Shown here one piece after another: positions 1 through 23,449 of a DNA stretch of 33,218 nt. Within the stretch, counting starts at the first letter, position 1. Each line of letters begins with the position of its first letter. The notes beneath the pieces were generated by a model. The model had not been told where the DNA came from, searched no databases, and worked only from the letters and a program-made list of their open reading frames with translations. The DNA is taken from the NCBI GenBank assembly GCA_016286345.1, contig JAEESL010000009.1:1-33218 (forward strand). Reading direction: 5' to 3'. The position numbers were made by a program, and so were the translations under genes. Source of the stretch: Dehalococcoidales bacterium. Its GTDB lineage: Bacteria > Chloroflexota > Dehalococcoidia > Dehalococcoidales > UBA1222.

Positions 1-770
1 CGCTTCATAGCAGTTCTGCCGTCCTGAGGGATTCTTCGCTCTGTGATATTCATATCACACATAACTTTAAAATATGAGATGACTGTGTTCTGAAGTTCTT
101 TAGGTATAGAAAGGATTTCTTCAAGACGTCCGTCAACTCTGATCCTGACTCTCATGGCATCAGACATCGGTTCAATGTGGATATCTGAAGCCTTGGCAGA
201 AATACTTCGTTCAAGAATACTGTTGACTAGTTTAACAGTAGGAGCAGATTCATCATCGACAGCGGCCATTCTGAGGGAATCTCGTTCCTCAATGGTCATG
301 TCTCTTTCCTGCTGCATCTGCTTTATGGCCTGGGAAGCACCTTCATTTTCATACAGAACGCCAAGAGCTTTGCTGATGGCATTGCTGTATGCGATCATAG
401 GAGTTATTCGCTTTTTACTGTATGTTCGGGCAGCTTCTATGGCTCTGAAGTTCAGAGGATCATCCATTGCGACAAACAGACGATCGCCTTCAAGTTTTAC
501 AGGAACCATTCTGAACTTGAATGCCTGGTTCTTAGGTATGAATTTAATCAAATCAGGATCGATCTTTTCATTTACCGGATCAACAAAATCTATACCAAGC
601 TGCATCTGCAGTGTTCTGACCAAATCATGCGGTGTGATAATTTTATTATCAATCAGAACATCGCCCAAATGCTTGCCGGTCTCTTTCTGCTGTCTTAGAG
701 CTTCTTCGAGTTGCTCCTGAGTAATTACTTTTTCATCAATCAGCATTTCGCCGAGTCTTTTGTTCTTCAT
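1..770 (-). CDS. pilB: Type IV pilus assembly ATPase PilB (GspE family), N-terminal part, cut by window edge
   Basis: The reading frame is open from the ATG at 770 to the left edge, so about 256 residues are visible. It begins MKNKRLGEMLIDEKVITQEQ. Residues 1-150 form an MshEN (GSPII_E N-terminal) domain with two copies of the RLGxxLxxxxxIxxxxLxxxLxxQ-type motif, at about residues 5-28 and 38-61. After a linker comes the start of the T2SSE ATPase domain, with KLVNSILERSISAKASDIHI near residue 180-200 and the ITERRIPQDGR segment at the edge. The Walker motifs lie outside the window. Proteins of this family are cytoplasmic hexameric ATPases that power pilin polymerisation. The ATG overlaps the TGA of the upstream prepilin gene (ATGA), so it is the last visible gene of the pilus operon. 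MshEN domains of this motif type bind cyclic di-GMP in other bacteria, so binding here is an inference. Confidence 0.93.
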   Translation of the reverse strand, partial: MKNKRLGEMLIDEKVITQEQLEEALRQQKETGKHLGDVLIDNKIITPHDLVRTLQMQLGIDFVDPVNEKIDPDLIKFIPKNQAFKFRMVPVKLEGDRLFVAMDDPLNFRAIEAARTYSKKRITPMIAYSNAISKALGVLYENEGASQAIKQMQQERDMTIEERDSLRMAAVDDESAPTVKLVNSILERSISAKASDIHIEPMSDAMRVRIRVDGRLEEILSIPKELQNTVISYFKVMCDMNITERRIPQDGRTAMK

Positions 771-1342
771 CTGCCCAGCAACCTTTCCTTATTGAACGAA
801 CTTATTGTGATTGGTTCACTTAAGACCACTTCTCCTGTTTCGCTATCTACAATAGACAAAGTAAAGCTGACCTCACCGGTATAAACAATTCTATCGTCTA
901 CTGTTTCCGTTACAAAGTTAAGATTATCACATCTTGTATACAAATTGTGATTGTTTCCTGAATCAGCATCCAGTTTAAACGTTTTATCTGACGACTGAAG
1001 CTCTATCCCTTCAGTCAGCTCTTCATAATCATATCTAAAACGCGGCTCATTAAATCTGACCCATGTGCCTCGGGTTGGTGTCAAAAACAACACATAAAAT
1101 TCTTCATGACCACTGGGAGTATCTGTTGTGCTGGCCTGTCTTATATCCGTAATATTTCTGATATCTTCTGTCAGTTCGGTGACTGCGGTCGAAAACATGA
1201 TCTGAGCATGTGACTGACGATCAATATCTTTACTCACATTCAAAGCAGTCGTAATACCTGTCACCACTGCAACAAAGATAATTGCAATCAACACTGTAGT
1301 AATCAAAGTCTCTGCCAAAGTAAAACCTGCATTACGCCTCAT
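767..1342 (-). CDS. Prepilin-like minor pilin (PilW/GspJ-like)
   Basis: This 191-residue protein starts MRRNAGFTLAETLITTVLIA. It has a textbook class III signal: a short basic leader, Gly at the cleavage point, Phe at +1 and Glu at +5, then a hydrophobic helix to about residue 30. The rest is a soluble domain predicted to be beta-rich, with no further recognisable motif. PilD would cleave after Gly6 and methylate Phe1. It sits between two other prepilin-like genes, with 4-base overlaps on both sides (1339-1342 and 767-770), which indicates translational coupling. Size and place in the row suggest a PilW/GspJ-like minor pilin that helps initiate or cap the fibre. The exact minor pilin class is an inference. 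Confidence 0.85.
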   Translation of the reverse strand: MRRNAGFTLAETLITTVLIAIIFVAVVTGITTALNVSKDIDRQSHAQIMFSTAVTELTEDIRNITDIRQASTTDTPSGHEEFYVLFLTPTRGTWVRFNEPRFRYDYEELTEGIELQSSDKTFKLDADSGNNHNLYTRCDNLNFVTETVDDRIVYTGEVSFTLSIVDSETGEVVLSEPITISSFNKERLLGR

Positions 1343-1683
1343 TGTTCTGACTCCTCAAACAAAGAAAACACAGGTCTGCCGTTTTTATCATTCAAAGTTT
1401 GTATATCAATATTAACGTATATCTGAAAAGCTTCGATACCTGAACCATTTACAACTATTTGACTTGACAGGGTAGTAGCTGAAGCCATGTTTTCATTTTC
1501 AACTTTATTTCTGATAGAGATATAGTTACTGACTCTGTCTCTTGATTTTTTAACCATTGAGGTCGCAGCATTTACTGCAGAAACCACCATAATCAGGCCT
1601 AATGAGATTACAAGCCCCGCAACCAGGACTTCTGCCATGGACTCTCCGCGTTTTGAACGTATTTTCTTAATCAAATCCTTCAT
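1339..1683 (-). CDS. Short prepilin-like protein (PilV/GspI-like)
   Basis: This 114-residue protein begins MKDLIKKIRSKRGESMAEVL, followed by a hydrophobic stretch to about residue 37. The leader is basic, the presumed cleavage follows Gly13, and Glu is at +5. The +1 residue is Glu rather than the usual Phe or Met, but the SMAEVLVAGLVISLG pattern is typical of the PilV/GspI group. The soluble part is only about 70 residues, so this is a small minor pilin. It overlaps the genes on both sides by 4 bases. PilV/GspI-like proteins form part of the tip complex that starts pilus assembly, and that role is inferred from family and context. Confidence 0.78.
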   Translation of the reverse strand: MKDLIKKIRSKRGESMAEVLVAGLVISLGLIMVVSAVNAATSMVKKSRDRVSNYISIRNKVENENMASATTLSSQIVVNGSGIEAFQIYVNIDIQTLNDKNGRPVFSLFEESEQ

Positions 1684-2306
1684 AATGCCTGTGCCTCGGA
1701 AAGAATTGATTCATGGTACCAGGTAACCGACAGAGGTATCCTTGTTGCTTCAGAGCCTCCATCGTGAGCATATATGATCGGAGAGTTTGGATCTATGTTC
1801 TCGTAAGGTGCTGCTTTCATGGAAAGCACAAGTTTTTGTTTAGAAGCAGGATGAGAAAAAACTCCTACAAGATCATAATTGCCATACATAATAAACTGCG
1901 CTGTTACATTACCGCTAAGTGCAGTATTCAAACCCCCAACACTAAAAGTTACTGTTTCAACGGACTGTATATCTTCACCGGTCCCTACCATCAGTTTTGA
2001 ATTTATATCCTCAGAGAGAATATCCAGAATATGGGGCAAACCGGAATGAACTACTTTGTTTTCTCCTGAAGCGTTGAAATAACACGTTGTTCCGTCAAAT
2101 TCATCAGAAAACAATTCAGCACTGGAGACCAATGTGTAAATACTCTGGTCATCCTGATTTATATTGCTTACAGACCCGTTGGCAACAGAACCGGAAGCCA
2201 ATATGATGGAAGCAGCCGCTGCACAGATAACAAATACCATCAGAGCGATCGCAAGCGATGTTCCCTTTTTGTCTTTTAGTTTATTTATAATCTTAGAGTT
2301 CTTCAT
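1680..2306 (-). CDS. Prepilin-like protein without Glu5 (PilX/GspK-like candidate)
   Basis: This 208-residue protein has a lysine-rich leader ending KDKKG, then TSLAIALMVFVICAAAASII as the hydrophobic helix. Cleavage after Gly15 is plausible, but position +5 is Ile instead of the conserved Glu. In type II pseudopili the GspK tip subunit also lacks Glu5, so this protein may sit at the fibre tip, which is an inference. The remaining 170 residues have no motif I recognise. Start and stop overlap the neighbouring genes by 4 bases, within the same operon as the giant prepilin upstream and pilB downstream. Confidence 0.75.
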   Translation of the reverse strand: MKNSKIINKLKDKKGTSLAIALMVFVICAAAASIILASGSVANGSVSNINQDDQSIYTLVSSAELFSDEFDGTTCYFNASGENKVVHSGLPHILDILSEDINSKLMVGTGEDIQSVETVTFSVGGLNTALSGNVTAQFIMYGNYDLVGVFSHPASKQKLVLSMKAAPYENIDPNSPIIYAHDGGSEATRIPLSVTWYHESILSEAQAL

Positions 2307-5098
2307 GGCTGATGAATTTCACCTGATGTCACATTATCAACTAAAACAACATAAGTATTATGATCTTCATCGTTGTTTGTATCTATATCACCGCATTTGA
2401 TCCACGGACCAGATTCACTTCCTGATGGGATTTGCCATGCATTGTAATTAAAGTAGTCACGAGCGACATATAATCCATCTGCAATGAGTCCCGACCCAAC
2501 ATCAAGATTTTCAAAATAGGCAAAATATCCAGTTCCATACGATACAGTCCAACTCATAGTTGAGGCATTGAGATCATTCTGAGTCAGTAACACCGGTTCT
2601 GCCAGGTTTCCGTAATCGATAACGGTCATTCGAGAAGAAAAATCACTCGGTGTAGGATCTGAATCCAAATTGTACCAGTTGTTGTAACCAGTAATATAGT
2701 ATTCTCCGTTATATGAGAACACTGTCGCCGGAGCAATGGAGACCCCATTACCTGCACCTTCAATCAATTCTTCCCATGTCGGAATATTAATTCTAATCTT
2801 AGTTCCATCGTTTGCTGTAAACGTCAGGCCATCATCCTCCTCCTGAACAACAGACGGCCAGTCGCCATAATGGGTAGGAAGATCCGTACCGCTTGCTATA
2901 CCGGTAATTACAGCGCCAAAAGGATATTCATCCGGGAGAGCTGGATCGGTATGAATACCAACTGCCGTCGACTGATCCAAAGAATTCCAGGACGAAACAA
3001 TTTCATTTAATTCAGATCCAGTCTTTGCTACAGCTAAACTATCACTACAGGTATTGATACCTGCAAGATAATAAGCATTGTCGACAGACGGATGCCCCGT
3101 TGCATTACCGACAAAAGCTTTGGGAGATGATCCGGTCACTAACCCTGTGCAGTATGCATTGTTTACTCTGACTTTTTGAACTCTTCCAAGGAAACCTCCG
3201 GCAGTCGAACCATCGACAGAAGCTGTTGAATAACAGTTGTTTATATTAATACGGCCACTTCCTACGCCAACCGTGTAACCAATAAATCCACCGGCAGTCG
3301 AACCTGAAACATTTGCAGATCCGACGTAAGTTCCATTCGTCGTTTTTCCTCCGACATAGCTGTTGCTGATCGTACTATTGGTTCTTATTTCTCCAACCAA
3401 ACCACCTGCTACGTCCTCACTGGTTACTGAAACAGAACTGAAACTACTATCGATGGTAAACACATCATCATCTTTGCTATGGTCTTTACCAACACGTCCA
3501 ATCATGCCTCCGGCATAATCAGATCCGTTTATGAAGGAGTCTCTGTTTCCGATTATTCCGCTGTTGTTTATATTAACTCTCCATGAAGACCTACCCTTAC
3601 TATCAACCAGACCAAGGATTCCTCCGCATGTCGATCCTGTAATTCTAATGTCGCCTGTTATAAATACATTACTCAGTGTGATTTTTTTGGCATCTCCTAC
3701 AGTACTTAAAACTGCACCACAGTTGTCACCATTAACTGTAACGTTATTCATTGTCAGATTGCGAATAGTAAGATTGCTATCCTCCACTAATTCTGCGAAC
3801 AAGGCTGCATTATTATCATCATCTTCGACAATCGTAGCTCCGCTGATCACATGATTATTTCCATTAAAATCAATGATTCCTTCATTGTGTAGCGGAGTAA
3901 AAGCATTAGGCATATCAAAGTTGCAAATCAATTCAACATTTGTGAAAGAAGCAGCTGATATTCCAGAACTTCTCGTAGAAGTTGAATCAAGTGTCTCAAG
4001 ATTCTGAAGATGTCTTTCAGCACCGATATATGCAGTATGCGTCTGTTCTTCAATGGAATCGAACAATGAATTTGTTGACTTAGTAATTATGCCTGTTTCA
4101 TATTCATCGCCGCTTGCCCTGACGGTGATTATCAGGTTTTCGCCGGGAGAAAAACCTGTGAAAATATCTCGGAATCGCCTGTTTGCATTAACAACATCAT
4201 CTATGACAAGCGTAAATGTTTTTGTTCCGTCACCATTGTCGATGACAGTCAAAATATTCGGAAGAGGCGATGCTGTACCTACAGCATTATTCTGCCATAT
4301 GTTGAATGTTTTGATCTTTCCTGAAGCCTGACCTGTCACTGTCAAATCGATCATCAGTGACGGTTTGATTTCGGCAGTAACAACTGCACTTAATGTTGCA
4401 TCATTGTTTATAGCCAAAGAAAGAGCAGGTTTTTCGGTGCTGGCAGAAACCACCGGTAAAGCATTCCCACCATAGTAGCCAATAACAATACTTCTGTTTT
4501 TATTATCTCTGAACTTACGGAATTCTTCCGGATGTAAACGTGCATTTTTAGTTTTGCAGAGATAGACAATATCCGCAGCACTTATGATTTTGTCACTGTC
4601 AGTATAGAAAACACCATAAACAGTTCCTGTGACTAGATCCAGCTCAATAAGATACTGCCCTTTTTCTCTGATCTTCCCATCAATAGAACCATTGGGCAGG
4701 ATTATATCTAATAGTTCCGTCTCAGCGCCACCACCAGGATGCATTACAAAGAAAAAATCGTGCTCCGCGAATGGCCCGCCAAGAGATGTATCATAATCAT
4801 TGATAACAGTATCATCATTTGAAACACCCAGCCCCTGATTGGAATATCTTCTGAAATTGCTCACGTCATGATCAGCAAGATAAGCATACCAGGAACCATC
4901 TGCCTTGGCCTTGGTAAGATGATTCTGCGCAGCCAAAAAGATAGATTTGGCTGCATTTGTACTGTCTGCATTTTTAAACTGAGTATCATACTGAACAAAC
5001 GCTCCCATCCCAAATGCCATCAGAATTAGCATCAGGGCCATAACAATCAGCATCTCTCCAAGAGAGAATCCTTTATTACGGTTATTCAGTATACTCAT
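2303..5098 (-). CDS. Giant prepilin with GLUG-repeat beta-helix (probable pilus adhesin)
   Basis: This 931-residue protein opens with a clear class III signal, MSILNNRNKGFSLGEMLIVM (cleavage after Gly10, Glu at +5), and a helix to about residue 36. Residues 40-215 resemble a large pilin head. Residues 220-350 look like an Ig-like beta region. From about 355 to 670 there is a repetitive beta-helix with GLUG-type motifs: CGAVLSTV (460), CGGILGLV (491), AGGMIGRV (529), AGGLVGEI (564), AGGFIGYT (602) and AGGFLGRV (633). A HYGDWP segment (743-748) ends the repeats, and an unrecognised 175-residue C-terminal domain follows. GLUG repeats are typical of secreted adhesins. As the first and largest prepilin of the operon, it is likely displayed on the pilus and may bind surfaces or cells. 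It could also act as a tip protein in place of PilY1. Function is inferred; the prepilin and repeat features are seen directly. Confidence 0.88.
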   Translation of the reverse strand: MSILNNRNKGFSLGEMLIVMALMLILMAFGMGAFVQYDTQFKNADSTNAAKSIFLAAQNHLTKAKADGSWYAYLADHDVSNFRRYSNQGLGVSNDDTVINDYDTSLGGPFAEHDFFFVMHPGGGAETELLDIILPNGSIDGKIREKGQYLIELDLVTGTVYGVFYTDSDKIISAADIVYLCKTKNARLHPEEFRKFRDNKNRSIVIGYYGGNALPVVSASTEKPALSLAINNDATLSAVVTAEIKPSLMIDLTVTGQASGKIKTFNIWQNNAVGTASPLPNILTVIDNGDGTKTFTLVIDDVVNANRRFRDIFTGFSPGENLIITVRASGDEYETGIITKSTNSLFDSIEEQTHTAYIGAERHLQNLETLDSTSTRSSGISAASFTNVELICNFDMPNAFTPLHNEGIIDFNGNNHVISGATIVEDDDNNAALFAELVEDSNLTIRNLTMNNVTVNGDNCGAVLSTVGDAKKITLSNVFITGDIRITGSTCGGILGLVDSKGRSSWRVNINNSGIIGNRDSFINGSDYAGGMIGRVGKDHSKDDDVFTIDSSFSSVSVTSEDVAGGLVGEIRTNSTISNSYVGGKTTNGTYVGSANVSGSTAGGFIGYTVGVGSGRININNCYSTASVDGSTAGGFLGRVQKVRVNNAYCTGLVTGSSPKAFVGNATGHPSVDNAYYLAGINTCSDSLAVAKTGSELNEIVSSWNSLDQSTAVGIHTDPALPDEYPFGAVITGIASGTDLPTHYGDWPSVVQEEDDGLTFTANDGTKIRINIPTWEELIEGAGNGVSIAPATVFSYNGEYYITGYNNWYNLDSDPTPSDFSSRMTVIDYGNLAEPVLLTQNDLNASTMSWTVSYGTGYFAYFENLDVGSGLIADGLYVARDYFNYNAWQIPSGSESGPWIKCGDIDTNNDEDHNTYVVLVDNVTSGEIHQP

Positions 5099-5118: not shown

Positions 5119-5682
5119 CTACTGATTCAAACCCTCAGTGCTTTCAGCTCCAGTTATCGTTTCAAAGAAAGTTAAGCTTACATTAACTGTAATAACTCCA
5201 CTTTCAACCATAGAATCAGCAGAGCCAAGTGTTATATCGTTAATTACGAGTTTGTATCGGCATTCACTAAGACTCGTAAGTATCTGACGGACTTTATCAT
5301 AGCTGTCAGTCTTACAATCAATGGAAACCACCCTTCGTACAAAGGTTTCATCGAGAACTGGTGCATTCCAGTTCAAACTGATCCCAGTACACTTTCCGGT
5401 CAGTATCTCATTGATTGCCAGTATTTCATTTGTCTGGTTATTATAAACAGCAATCTCTCCAGTTGACTCAATGTCAGCATTTTCAATAGCTTCTCTCATA
5501 TTCTTGAGACTGGCCGCTTTAGCCTGTTCCAGAGTCATTTCATCCTGAAACACCGTTGGATCATATGTCATTTTCTGCTCTTGGAAGTATGAATAAGTGA
5601 ATCTGTAATAGATCATACCGACAGCTACAAGAGCTAATAACAGTAAGAGAATCTTTTCACGGGTAGTAAAAGTGTGGTTCAT
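5119..5682 (-). CDS. pilO: PilO-like pilus alignment protein
   Basis: This 187-residue protein has a short N-terminal cytoplasmic segment, one membrane helix at about residues 10-30 (KILLLLLALVAVGMIYY), a helical or coiled stretch at 45-75, and a C-terminal alpha/beta domain of ferredoxin-like size. That layout matches PilO/GspM, which pairs with PilN and links the cytoplasmic PilM-PilB machinery to the extracytoplasmic pilus. Sequence identity to known PilO is not obvious by eye, so the call rests on topology and its place directly after pilN, with a 4-base overlap at 5679-5682. A 20-base gap separates it from the giant prepilin. Confidence 0.68.
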   Translation of the reverse strand: MNHTFTTREKILLLLLALVAVGMIYYRFTYSYFQEQKMTYDPTVFQDEMTLEQAKAASLKNMREAIENADIESTGEIAVYNNQTNEILAINEILTGKCTGISLNWNAPVLDETFVRRVVSIDCKTDSYDKVRQILTSLSECRYKLVINDITLGSADSMVESGVITVNVSLTFFETITGAESTEGLNQ

Positions 5683-6389
5683 GAATTTTCCTCCTCTGTC
5701 TGTTCTTCAGGTTTATAATCAGGATTGTATGTTATTTTAAAATCAGCAGTAACTTCTTCACCCTCTGGATTATCAGATGAGTTGATCGTAACAGTAACAT
5801 ACTTATTTCGAGGATCCTTCTGCATCAGTTCAAGCAGTTCAGAAACCTTCACCAGATCAGTTCCCTCAGCTTCAACAGTGATGCTCAATCCAGAGATACT
5901 AACGTTCTTTACAGGAAGTTCATATAGAATATCATCCTCAAGCATCTTGATCATATCCAAGTGAAGAAGATTATTCTGTTCATTTTCAGTCATATACTTG
6001 CCAAGAATTTCGGTATACTTAGCCTTTACTTCATTGTAGTCGGCATTGTTTTCCTTGAGAGCATTTAACTGACTCTCTGTCTTGTTGTATTCATCCTGAA
6101 GGCGCTGGATCTCCATCATAGGCTTATAAACACCAAAGAATCCCAGTAATCCGATACCTATCAGAAGCAACCCCAAAACGATCCAGGTCTTTCCGTCTCT
6201 CTTCTTCTTTCGTTTTTGGGCAAGATTTATCGTTCGCTTTTTGATCAAAGCGTTCTTTTTACCGGATTTTTTTTCTTTCTTCTTATCTTTTTTATTGTCT
6301 TTTTTATTATCAGCAACAGTATCAGCAGAATTCTCAGCAGGGATTTCTGCCGTTTGTTCTAATACATTTTCTTTATCAACATCACTCAT
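5679..6389 (-). CDS. pilN: PilN-like pilus assembly protein with lysine-rich N-terminus
   Basis: I place the start at the ATG at 6389 (MSDVDKENVLEQ, 236 residues), because GGCGGTGG lies just upstream and a longer frame from 6434 would run deep into pilM. Residues 1-35 are acidic and polar. Residues 28-63 are extremely Lys-rich (KKDNKKDKKKEKKSGKK). The TINLAQKRKKK segment near residue 52 matches the position of the PilN motif that binds the PilM groove. One membrane helix follows (about 69-88), then a coiled coil (92-125) and an alpha/beta domain. PilN spans the membrane and joins PilM to PilO. The gene overlaps pilM by 8 bases and pilO by 4. The charged N-terminal extension is longer than usual. 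Confidence 0.75.
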   Translation of the reverse strand: MSDVDKENVLEQTAEIPAENSADTVADNKKDNKKDKKKEKKSGKKNALIKKRTINLAQKRKKKRDGKTWIVLGLLLIGIGLLGFFGVYKPMMEIQRLQDEYNKTESQLNALKENNADYNEVKAKYTEILGKYMTENEQNNLLHLDMIKMLEDDILYELPVKNVSISGLSITVEAEGTDLVKVSELLELMQKDPRNKYVTVTINSSDNPEGEEVTADFKITYNPDYKPEEQTEEENS

Positions 6390-7368
6390 TTTCCACCGCC
6401 TGCAGTGCAATACCGACAGCCGCAGGGCCGTCAATTAATGCATCGTTTAGGTTAAGCTTTTCACTAAGGGATGACAAAGGTTCAATGGGCAACGGTACAG
6501 TTTCTTTCAGAGCACGGATCAGAGGTTCAATCCTCGATCCTCCTCCGCAGTAGTACAGCCTTTCAAGCGTGTTATCCCTGTTTTCATATGTGTAGTAGTT
6601 GATAGCTCTCATGACTTCCGTTGCAATTGATGCATATACGTTCATACACTGCTGACTGTTCTGAACATCCTTGGAGTTGTTGCGGAGATATTCATCTGCG
6701 ACATGTTCGTCGCATTCAAGCACCTCGGCAACCTGAGCTATAACATCCTTTATGCCTAAATCGATTGTTCTGGTAACTTCATACACACCAGACGAATAAA
6801 TATCCACTTTTGTATCGATAAAACCGATATCAAGGAAGGCAAAATCTTTTTCGTGATCACAGTCTAATTCCGGCAGGAGCGCACCAAGCGCCAGCACTCT
6901 CGGAGTCGCTTTGATCAGTTTGTATCCGACCTTGGAGAACATATTCATATATGATTCCATGATATCCCTTCGGATAGCGGCACCGAATATGTCCATCTCC
7001 TTGGCCTCTTCATCCATCTTTATCAAAGCATAATCAAATATATATGCATCTTCCTGACCTTTAATGACATCACTGAATTCATAGGGAAGATTCACTGCAA
7101 GCTGTGCATGAGTCATGGCCGGAAGATGTAAACGTCTCAAATATGACAGACTGTCCGGCAATGCAATTGCAACGTTGCCTGTCTTAATAGACCCTTTTGC
7201 CTGTTTCTGGAGGAAACTGGCCATACCGTCGAAAGCAACAAGATTTCCACCCTGAGTCATTCCCTCAGGGATCTCCAATGAATTGAATAACTTAATCTGA
7301 CTGTTTTTTGCCAGAGCGATCTTCAAACGGTAGGCACCAATCTCTATACCTGTAAGTGTCTGTGCCAT
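6382..7368 (-). CDS. pilM: Type IV pilus assembly protein PilM (actin-like ATPase)
   Basis: This 328-residue protein begins MAQTLTGIEIGAYRLKIALA, an actin/FtsA-type phosphate-1 loop. It continues with AFLDIGFIDTKVDIY (about residue 175) and YYCGGGSRIEPLIRAL (about 272), the other nucleotide-binding elements of the PilM fold. PilM is a cytoplasmic, ATP-binding ring-forming protein that connects the PilB motor to the N-terminus of PilN. A strong ribosome site (AGGAGAAGGAGG) lies just before the ATG. It follows pilD after 15 bases and overlaps pilN by 8 bases, the usual pilM-pilN-pilO order. Confidence 0.93.
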   Translation of the reverse strand: MAQTLTGIEIGAYRLKIALAKNSQIKLFNSLEIPEGMTQGGNLVAFDGMASFLQKQAKGSIKTGNVAIALPDSLSYLRRLHLPAMTHAQLAVNLPYEFSDVIKGQEDAYIFDYALIKMDEEAKEMDIFGAAIRRDIMESYMNMFSKVGYKLIKATPRVLALGALLPELDCDHEKDFAFLDIGFIDTKVDIYSSGVYEVTRTIDLGIKDVIAQVAEVLECDEHVADEYLRNNSKDVQNSQQCMNVYASIATEVMRAINYYTYENRDNTLERLYYCGGGSRIEPLIRALKETVPLPIEPLSSLSEKLNLNDALIDGPAAVGIALQAVENE

Positions 7369-7383: not shown

Positions 7384-8166
7384 CTAAAAAAACAAACTTA
7401 AATACCAATTAATTACCGGCGTACCGATAAATAAAGTCATAACAAATGCCACACTGATGGCCGGTCCGAACGGTATCCTGTTCTGCTTCATAACGGCAAC
7501 CATGATAAGTCCAATAATACTGGCCAACAACAAACAGAAAACTCCCTGCCCCAGACCAAGAACCAGACCCGCAAGGAAAAACAGCTTTATGTCACCGCCT
7601 CCCATCGAGTCCTTCTTCAGTATCCTATCCATTATCAGTGAGATCACCAATAATCCGCCTGCCAGGACAAAACCGCCGATAAGGCTGTCTTTAAGTTCTC
7701 CCCATATATCTCCGCTGGACAGAATATACAACAGCTGAAGAATAATACCTGAGATGGGAAGTCCGTTGGGGATCTCGTAGGTCATGAAATCAGTAATCGT
7801 GACAGCCAGCGCAATGACTATCATCCCCCAGTCCCTCACGGTCACAAATCCAATTCCGCCATCCCTCAGTATTACAAGGGCGAACAATATGCCTACCAGC
7901 AATTCTATCAGAGGATATTTTACGGGTACTTTGCTGCCACAGTAACGGCATTTTCCCCGGCTGAAGAGCCAGGAAAAGACAGGAACCAGATCCCTGACAC
8001 CCAGCACATGGTGACAGCTGTCACATTCGCTGCGTCCGCGAAGCCAGCTCCTTCCTGCCGCCATCCTTTCCGCCATACATGTTCCAAAGCTGGCCATTAT
8101 GGTTCCAAGAACGAAAGCAAAGACCATAAGATATATCAATAATCCCTGATCAAGTTCTGTCAGCAA
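7384..8166 (-). CDS. pilD: Prepilin peptidase / N-methyltransferase PilD (family A24)
   Basis: This 260-residue integral membrane protein has about eight hydrophobic segments. After the first helix there is a cytoplasmic loop with two CxxC pairs (CDSCHH at about 48 and CRYCGS at about 74), the zinc-binding loop of bifunctional PilD enzymes. The catalytic aspartates of the GXGD-type protease are visible in TITDFMTYEIPNG (about 143) and MGGGDIKLFF (about 190). It removes prepilin leaders and methylates the new N-terminus, here for the four prepilins downstream. The start is TTG at 8166: an in-frame TAG lies just upstream, and the next ATG (8127) would cut the first membrane helix. It is the first gene of the pilus operon. 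Confidence 0.94.
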   Translation of the reverse strand: MLTELDQGLLIYLMVFAFVLGTIMASFGTCMAERMAAGRSWLRGRSECDSCHHVLGVRDLVPVFSWLFSRGKCRYCGSKVPVKYPLIELLVGILFALVILRDGGIGFVTVRDWGMIVIALAVTITDFMTYEIPNGLPISGIILQLLYILSSGDIWGELKDSLIGGFVLAGGLLVISLIMDRILKKDSMGGGDIKLFFLAGLVLGLGQGVFCLLLASIIGLIMVAVMKQNRIPFGPAISVAFVMTLFIGTPVINWYLSLFF

Positions 8167-21881: not shown

Positions 21882-22033
21882 TCATTGTTTTACTGAGAAC
21901 GGTGAAAAGCATAAAAAAAGGGCTCAAAATATTTAATATACATTTCTTAACATTTTTATAGATTTGGCATTTTCAGAAAACATTTATGGTCTTTTTATAT
22001 AAAACTTTTATTCAATCTATACGCGTTTTTATA

Positions 22034-22062
22034 TTGACATTGCCCATAAAAGCCTCAATAAT
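22034..22062 (+). promoter_or_regulatory. Promoter of the octaheme cytochrome gene
   Basis: A perfect -35 TTGACA (22034-22039), a 17-base spacer and AATAAT (22057-22062, 5/6) form the best sigma-70-type promoter in the window. The predicted transcript start is near 22069, with a leader of about 37 bases holding the ribosome site AAGGGG. The remaining gap from 21882 to 22033 is AT-rich and shows no other feature I can support. Confidence 0.65.
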
Positions 22063-22105
22063 AGACTCAAAACTAGGACATTCTTCGATAAGGGGACAAT
22101 TGCCC

Positions 22106-23449
22106 ATGAAAAAGTTTTCTATTCTATTCGCATGTCTGGTTGTCACTGTTCTTTCATTGGCCTGCGCAGTATCTCTGCAGGCAGCCGATGATGCGCTGAC
22201 CATCCAGATAACTTCAACAAAAGCACCACAGAACTGTGAATTGTGCCATTCTACCGGAACAGCCGGAATTGTAAACCAGTTCCACAATTCAGCTATGTTC
22301 ACAAACGGTGGCGTGACCTGTGTGGATTGCCATGGTGATCATCACGCTGACAAAACATCCGCACCGACAGTTGACACCTGTGCAAAATGCCATCAGGACA
22401 AAGTTGATGATTACATGGCCGGAAAACATTCCAAAGCATGGGATGCCATGATCAACTGTCCTGTTTCAACAGTATCTTCCGATGTTCTGACCGGACTTGC
22501 CAATGGTATGAAAGGCTGCAACCAGTGCCACACAGTTGGCGTTATCCCCAACGATCAGATCGCAGCCAAGGGCATTACTTCAGACGTAAATCCCTGCGAC
22601 ACCTGTCACGTAAGACATCAGTTCTCAGCTGAACAGGCCAAAGATCCAGAAACCTGTGCACAATGCCACATCGGTTTCGATCACCCTCAGTATGAAATGT
22701 GGACCGATTCAGCCATGGGTACAGCATGGAAAGCCGGAGTTGGCGGACCTTCATGCCAGGATTGCCACATGGTCGATGGAACCCACAACAACATTACTGC
22801 ATGGGGTTTCCTCGGACTCCGATATCCTGAAAGTGACGAAGCATGGCTGGCTGACAGAGTTGAGATACTCAAGTCCATCGGTGTATTTGCCAACGGCGAT
22901 TTCACTGACAGACTCAACGGCTATGTTGCAAAGTATGATGTAGCACGACTCACTGAAGAGTCATTCAATACTCTCTATGCTCAGGAAAAGAAGAACTGCC
23001 AGCGATGTCATTCTGCATCCTATGTTGAAACTCAGTTCAAGGCAGCAGAAACAGTCCTCAAGCAGGCTGATGACATGATGGCAGAAGCTATCGATATCGT
23101 TATTAAGCTCCATGAAGACGGTCTCATTGTCAACAACGAAGGCTGGACATACAATCCTGATCTGCTCTACTTCTTTGAATCCGACAGCACCGTAGATGAT
23201 GAACTTTTCAAGATGTTCCTCAGCTATCGTAACCGAGCATTCCAGAGTGCATTCCACATGAATGCAGATTACACCTATTGGTATGGTATCTCCGCAATGG
23301 GTGAATCACTTAACAAGATTAAGGAAATCGATGCAAATCTCCGAGCCGACAAGGGAACCGGAACACCTGTATTCACATACATCGCCCTTGCAGTAGCTAT
23401 TATTGCATTGACAGTTGCAGCATTTGCACTGCTCAAGAAAAAAGCGTAA
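22106..23449 (+). CDS. Membrane-anchored octaheme cytochrome c, hydroxylamine oxidoreductase-like family
   Basis: The start is the ATG at 22106 (447 residues): AAGGGG lies upstream and a signal peptide follows directly (MKKFSILFACLVVTVLSLAC, likely cut after LQA near residue 26). Eight CxxCH haem sites are present: CELCH, CVDCH, CAKCH, CNQCH, CDTCH, CAQCH, CQDCH and CQRCH. The order and the segments CHVRHQFSAEQA, HIGFDHPQYEMW, DCHMVDGTHNN, AWGFLGLRYPE and HMNADYTYWYG match the HAO-like octaheme group. A C-terminal helix (about 421-442) followed by LLKKKA anchors it to the membrane, facing out. Likely a multi-electron redox enzyme or electron conduit; the substrate is unknown. It is transcribed alone, with its own promoter and terminator. 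Confidence 0.92.
   Translation: MKKFSILFACLVVTVLSLACAVSLQAADDALTIQITSTKAPQNCELCHSTGTAGIVNQFHNSAMFTNGGVTCVDCHGDHHADKTSAPTVDTCAKCHQDKVDDYMAGKHSKAWDAMINCPVSTVSSDVLTGLANGMKGCNQCHTVGVIPNDQIAAKGITSDVNPCDTCHVRHQFSAEQAKDPETCAQCHIGFDHPQYEMWTDSAMGTAWKAGVGGPSCQDCHMVDGTHNNITAWGFLGLRYPESDEAWLADRVEILKSIGVFANGDFTDRLNGYVAKYDVARLTEESFNTLYAQEKKNCQRCHSASYVETQFKAAETVLKQADDMMAEAIDIVIKLHEDGLIVNNEGWTYNPDLLYFFESDSTVDDELFKMFLSYRNRAFQSAFHMNADYTYWYGISAMGESLNKIKEIDANLRADKGTGTPVFTYIALAVAIIALTVAAFALLKKKA

Follow-up and report, generated by a model that had tools for sequence, protein, structure and literature searches.

Known modular pilins and pilus tips

The minor pilins H, I, J and K form the tip complex of type 4 filaments, in which the capping subunit lacks Glu5 (PMC10191384; for the Com model, PMC12153270). 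In the type IVa pili of diderms, these minor pilins present a large modular tip adhesin, PilY1/PilC, which is itself a non-pilin protein. In the monoderm Streptococcus sanguinis, PilABC replace HIJK in the type IV pilus (T4P), and the modular pilins PilB and PilC, in which a small pilin module bears a large vWA or lectin module, are adhesins (PMC8179133, PMC9934059). Raynaud et al. 2021 listed 264 modular-pilin architectures, the most extreme multi-domain pilin having 860 residues; one of these architectures, a pilin module combined with IPR011493, is given a single sentence as a predicted M26 peptidase (PMC8179133). Thermus thermophilus ComZ is a large minor pilin with a beta-solenoid, a proposed tip location and a proposed role as DNA receptor (PMC6561018). 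Among gut Bacillota, the T4P of Ruminococcus albus and R. flavefaciens are expressed and linked to cellulose adhesion, and the available part of that report describes small pilins and no large modular one (PMC3672088).

We analysed a stretch of 33,218 nucleotides from the genome of a Dehalococcoidales bacterium (hereafter the window), which encodes a prepilin of 931 residues (P0001). Its layout is that of the modular pilins of Raynaud and Pelicic: an N-terminal pilin module, with a beta-helix downstream that is not specific to T4P. As in S. sanguinis PilB and PilC, a small pilin module bears a large non-pilin module and the setting is one of monoderm minor pilins; unlike in S. sanguinis, the graft is a GLUG-type beta-helix, and the large pilin lies in the H slot of an HIJK set. 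It resembles PilY1 as a large modular protein encoded with H-I-J-K minor pilins, but is a pilin and gave no match to the PilY1 C-terminal domain (PF05567). We consider it likely that this protein is a modular H-position minor pilin, belonging to the four-subunit HIJK tip complex of a monoderm-type T4P.

The large prepilin and its operon

The prepilin gene occupies positions 2303..5098 on the minus strand, a strand left unstated in the original prediction, and its ATG is preceded by AAAGG, which is like a ribosome-binding site. Both the open reading frame (ORF) call and a match to Pfam N_methyl (23.1 bits, cut-off 21.2) confirm the prepilin with a Glu5 leader that had been predicted there. The N-terminus reads MSILNNRNKG followed by FSLGEMLIVMALMLILMAFGMGA, which is a class III prepilin leader (G/FSLGE, the slash marking the presumed cleavage site) with Glu5 present, and the protein has the full type IV prepilin signature of a short basic leader ending in Gly, Glu5 and about 20 hydrophobic residues. 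The leader, read from the sequence, comprises residues 1-10 (5069..5098). Next comes the pilin module (residues 11-222; 4433..5068), whose boundary was taken from pilin-only homologues of 189 and 191 residues in the same slot (L117, L118), and then a family-conserved linker or Ig-like segment (residues 223-350, NAExL ... PGENI ... NSLF; 4049..4432), for which there is a weak Big_7 match in one relative and a low-confidence fold prediction. The beta-helix with its six GLUG-like units (residues 395-690; 3029..3916) is followed by the motif HYGDW (residues 743-747; 2858..2872), which in the family alignment ends each rod module and of which H, G, D and W are invariant in five family members. The C-terminal region (residues 750-931; 2306..2851), all of these features being on the minus strand, matched no Pfam family, has no counterpart in the closest relatives and gave a low-confidence structure model, as befits the unassigned C-terminal domain of the original prediction.

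The minus strand carries one operon in the order pilD-M-N-O-large prepilin-K-I-J-pilB, the last gene being cut by the contig end; from pilM on, the genes overlap or almost abut, several with a 4-bp stop/start overlap. PilD, the prepilin peptidase (7384..8166), is identified by PF06750 (1.3e-26) and PF01478 (9.2e-13), and PilM (6382..7368) by PF11104 (E = 3.7e-16), whereas PilN-like (5679..6434) and PilO-like (5119..5682) proteins are assigned from their position and from homologues in L052 (2.5e-27 and 1.2e-32, respectively) and, for PilO, also in L116. Beyond the large prepilin lie a K-type minor prepilin of 208 residues that lacks Glu5 (KKG/TSLAI), is GspK/PilX-like and has homologues in the same slot (1680..2306; L073, 2.8e-12; L108, 2.4e-8), an I-type one of 114 residues (G/ESMAE; 1339..1683; homologues in L073 and L112) and a J-type one of 191 residues (G/FTLAE; 767..1342; homologues in L073 and L109). 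The three small prepilins that had been noted beside the large one are therefore real, and the joint assembly then proposed for all four is supported by the operon with its 4-bp overlaps and by the same order in unrelated gut Bacillota.

The N-terminal 256 residues of the assembly ATPase PilB (3..770, minus strand) include an MshEN c-di-GMP-binding domain above cut-off, so that pilus assembly may respond to c-di-GMP. The gene continues on another contig of the same genome (G000:C107), which carries the rest of the operon: the C-terminal part of pilB, pilT, pilC and a 149-residue major pilin (pilA). Aligned to the PilB of one relative, the two pilB pieces (window 3-770; L048 4140-4913) cover its residues 1-253 and 301-556, so that some 47 codons are missing between contigs C87 and C107. 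Outside the operon, the same genome has three more orphan prepilins (L049 2393-2923 and 5290-5991, L050 8114-8782, all on the minus strand), two of which resemble a pilin at L073 10169-10747.

Probable assignment to the H position

The large prepilin is encoded with I, J and Glu5-less K minor pilins, as is expected for the H subunit of HIJK. Against Pfam, its pilin module gave the N_methyl match, weak N-terminal matches to ComGE and ComGD and no H-specific match, so that gene order and exclusion are the grounds for calling it H: with K, I and J present, the large pilin is the remaining subunit of the block. Its gene completes a conserved H-K-I-J block of four, and a pilin-only version of 190 residues occurs in the same slot, as expected of a core tip subunit; both argue against a position outside the tip complex, at low frequency along the shaft, where it would decorate the side in the manner of the system-specific minor pilins of Neisseria. 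Such a placement could be accommodated by long linkers, as PMC8179133 allows, and agrees with the retention of Glu5 by the large pilin, unlike the capping K subunit; overall, we regard it as unlikely.

The original prediction had suggested that the large pilin may be an adhesive tip or side subunit that replaces PilY1. As in the S. sanguinis T4P, PilY1 was not found in the window genome, nor in the 19 others reached via the pilus searches (20 genomes in all, in a search without a positive control); since the control set gave no match, we do not claim strict absence. We infer replacement of PilY1 by the large pilin, together with leader cleavage, tip location and a binding function.

A predicted beta-helix with GLUG-like repeats

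The original prediction included at least six GLUG-like repeats. The Pfam GLUG model (PF07581) scored only 11.1 bits (E = 0.6) on the 931-residue protein, below its cut-off of 20.5, and for this reason we term the units GLUG-like. The closest relative (P0005) scored 38.5 bits (E = 1.1e-9), far over the cut-off, and its helix region aligns to that of the 931-residue protein at E = 5.6e-17. A repeat profile trained on the relatives only, with 1,000 shuffled sequences as control, found six units of the GGL.G type, at residues 488-510, 525-545, 562-584, 599-622, 630-654 and 662-678, with a score of 17.5 bits against 11.3 for the best of the shuffles. The count of repeats is thus upheld by the relatives' profile, at residues 488-678, although not by the Pfam cut-off.

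Residues 395-690, folded alone as a single sequence, gave an all-beta model of a beta-helix (pLDDT 72.7, pTM 0.79), in agreement with the fold that had been predicted. The best match of this model in the PDB was 3n6z, a putative IgA1 protease beta-helix from Bacteroides ovatus (E = 1.3e-3, probability 1.00), which the family sequence profile also retrieves (E = 0.003); M26 IgA1 proteases with a beta-helix were also among the top matches. The full-length model had a mean pLDDT of 45.6 and was poor except for the N-terminal helix and the beta-helix, because its input was limited to proteins of the window plus a handful of partial relatives. These models, which were built on one to three sequences, support the view that a beta-helix has been grafted onto a pilin base.

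The large pilin thus has a GLUG-type beta-helix in common with 3n6z and the M26 IgA1 metalloproteases, and it counts against an adhesive pilin that some enzymes, too, use GLUG beta-helices as scaffolds. The ectodomain might then be an enzyme on a pilin carrier, such as an M26-type protease or, via the beta-helix, a polysaccharide lyase or hydrolase; a weak match to Glyco_hydro_49 (E = 0.009, under the cut-off) points the same way, as does the view of the pilin-plus-IPR011493 architecture as a peptidase (PMC8179133). Unlike the M26 proteases, however, the large pilin has neither HExxH nor a protease domain, and since this zinc motif is absent from all 16 family members, the M26 identity was dropped. 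Neither the 931-residue protein nor its relatives matched any catalytic family above cut-off, and the part of the IgA1 protease that is matched is the gating beta-helix rather than the catalytic domain (PMC9637739). Protease activity is not expected given this match and the missing HExxH, and we find an enzymatic ectodomain highly improbable. By analogy with the modular pilins that have been studied, the large pilin is probably adhesive.

A size series of pilins in gut Bacillota

A search with the full protein found nothing convincing in the bacterium's own order or phylum and almost nothing in named genomes; weak matches in G005 and G282 were set aside as GLUG-only, the G005 ORF having no prepilin leader. 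The family was reached through a PilB scan of named genomes, which led to pilus loci of gut Bacillota, and a protein search there. The homologues found have 753 residues (L073), 809 (L074), 3,966 (L076, a Gemmiger MAG) and at least 2,826 (L075, where the ORF runs off the contig), and common to them are the leader, the pilin-module motifs IFxAAQNHLT and GYYGG, the Ig-like linker, the beta-helix and a closing HYGDW-type motif. Prepilins of similar layout, for which the original prediction suggested a search in related genomes, exist as a family in gut Bacillota.

A pilin-plus-linker profile was then searched against 391 genomes of the relatives' class. Most of the profile was matched in ORFs of 3,752, 2,224 and 3,284 residues, and a smaller part in further ORFs of 1,891-2,780 residues in the same kind of slot; the same genomes yielded the pilin-only homologues of 189-191 residues. 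Prepilin ORFs of 2,780-3,966 residues lie at L076 3696-15596 (minus), L108 4997-16246, L110 3345-13199 (minus), L075 6376-14855 and L114 6056-14398; all belong to pilus operons, and several contain more than one beta-helix module. Across gut Bacillota, the same slot thus holds proteins of about 190 (the pilin module alone), 753, 809, 2,219, 3,749 and 3,966 residues. The L109 locus, for example, reads giant pilin (2,219 residues)-K-I-J-pilB-pilT-pilC-pilA-pilD, and the run from the big pilin to pilA is as in the window genome. At another locus (L111 13229-17231, minus), eight major-pilin-like genes stand in tandem upstream of pilB.

Gene order is shared among these relatives, and the pilin module often is. 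A pilin-module profile from which the N-terminal helix had been removed matched L108, L109, L113, L116, L117, L118 and L058 (E from 1e-11 to 5e-4); L110, L111, L112, L114 and L115 fell below significance, and for these five we do not claim common descent of the pilin module despite the shared slot and leader. L114 and L115 share the rod module. By the rod-module profile, the 931-residue protein, L073 and L074 have a single copy each and L075 has two; several copies are present in L108 and in L076, which have five and six HYGDW-type closings, respectively. These repeats indicate that tandem duplication of a single module accounts for at least part of the size series. The giant ORFs are predicted proteins known from metagenome assemblies, and the in-frame repetition of a homologous module argues that they are real. 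Judged by sequence, the 931-residue pilin is a smaller member of a gut-bacterial pilin family whose largest proteins attain about 4,000 residues through rod repetition.

In L114 and L115, the pilin bears InlB-type repeats (PF09479) fused at its C-terminus; in L073, L074, L111 and L112, a neighbouring gene encodes such repeats as a separate secreted protein, and very large secreted InlB-repeat ORFs lie directly beside the large pilin (L073 1-6217, minus; L074 5321-12000; L112 6559-10641; L111 1-2306, minus). This fused-or-adjacent pattern suggests that the pilin and the InlB-repeat protein work together, and the separate protein is a possible non-covalent tip partner. Fused InlB repeats and an up to sixfold variation in copy number fit a spacer or adhesin better than they fit a beta-helix that binds DNA for uptake. 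The latter reading draws on ComZ, a large minor pilin whose beta-solenoid and proposed tip receptor role (PMC6561018) recall the large pilin in description, and on the binding of DNA by H/J minor pilins of Com pili (PMC12153270). The ComZ solenoid, however, is inserted within the pilin sheet (PMC8179133), whereas the graft here follows the pilin module, and we give DNA uptake very little credence.

Origin of the pilus operon

The window contig belongs to its genome, as its gltX is 85% identical to that of a congener and 65-69% identical to those of family members. A chimeric contig was rejected on this ground and because GC and tetranucleotide usage show no sharp island, the pilus half not departing from the remainder of the genome. 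The window also encodes a multihaem c-type cytochrome (21986-23449) that is rich in CxxCH motifs and has a membrane anchor at its C-terminus.

The operon's PilC shares 52% identity with the PilC of a goat-gut MAG (L052) but only 28% with the one found in the bacterium's own family. In the PilC tree, the window PilC is sister to L052 (100/100) inside a Bacillota pilus clade (100/100), and nine PilCs from its own order form a separate clade (100/99) apart from it. PF11104 matches in that order are mostly PilM-like ORFs of about 500 residues from other pilus systems; order-mates L004 and L006-L034 have such a different system, whose PilM-like protein is possibly a PilM-PilN fusion. The whole pilus operon clusters with gut Bacillota rather than with the host's own order, which makes lateral acquisition, followed by amelioration, probable.

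A proposed adhesive fibre at the pilus tip

The evidence suggests an adhesive fibre at the pilus tip. PilD would remove the leader of ten residues, and the N-terminal helix would enter the filament as with other pilins. The ectodomain, consisting of the Ig-like linker, the GLUG beta-helix rod and the private C-terminal domain, would project from the tip as a stiff spacer with a binding surface, the putative ligand being most likely a surface polymer or glycan. Multiplication of the rod unit, up to about sixfold in the family, yields pilins of about 4,000 residues, and some relatives also have InlB-type repeats, whether fused to the pilin or on a secreted protein encoded next to it. Our broader proposal is a tentative one: the T4P tip could possibly end in a stiff fibre formed by one giant H-type pilin, its length set by tandem duplication of an Ig-plus-beta-helix unit (one to six copies, up to about 4,000 residues) and in some lineages capped by InlB repeats (fused or secreted), in gut Bacillota and, by lateral transfer, in the window bacterium.

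Modular pilins themselves are already established; the novel features here are a giant size, duplication of modules, conservation of the H slot and an InlB partner. We take IPR011493 to be the InterPro entry for GLUG, in which case the combination of pilin with GLUG was already catalogued. The rod, slot, module duplication and giant sizes are not described by Raynaud et al. (PMC8179133), and the relatives are about four to nine times larger than S. sanguinis PilB (454 residues processed). Open-licence papers, searched both for pilins of giant or unusual size and for the pairing of GLUG with a pilin, yielded no description of the family, and the literature searched does not describe a tip fibrillum inside one pilin for type IV pili. 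Giant pilins would escape PilFind, a predictor for Gram-positive bacteria that accepts only sequences shorter than 350 residues (PMC3244431).

Should pilins of 2,000-4,000 residues prove to be genuine tip subunits, T4P must export huge folded loads and anchor them by one transmembrane helix. The size series in one conserved slot (about 190 to 3,966 residues) is directly testable in cultivable relatives. If the proposal is true, gut Bacillota have an adhesive tip of tunable length, which could explain attachment to fibre or mucus.
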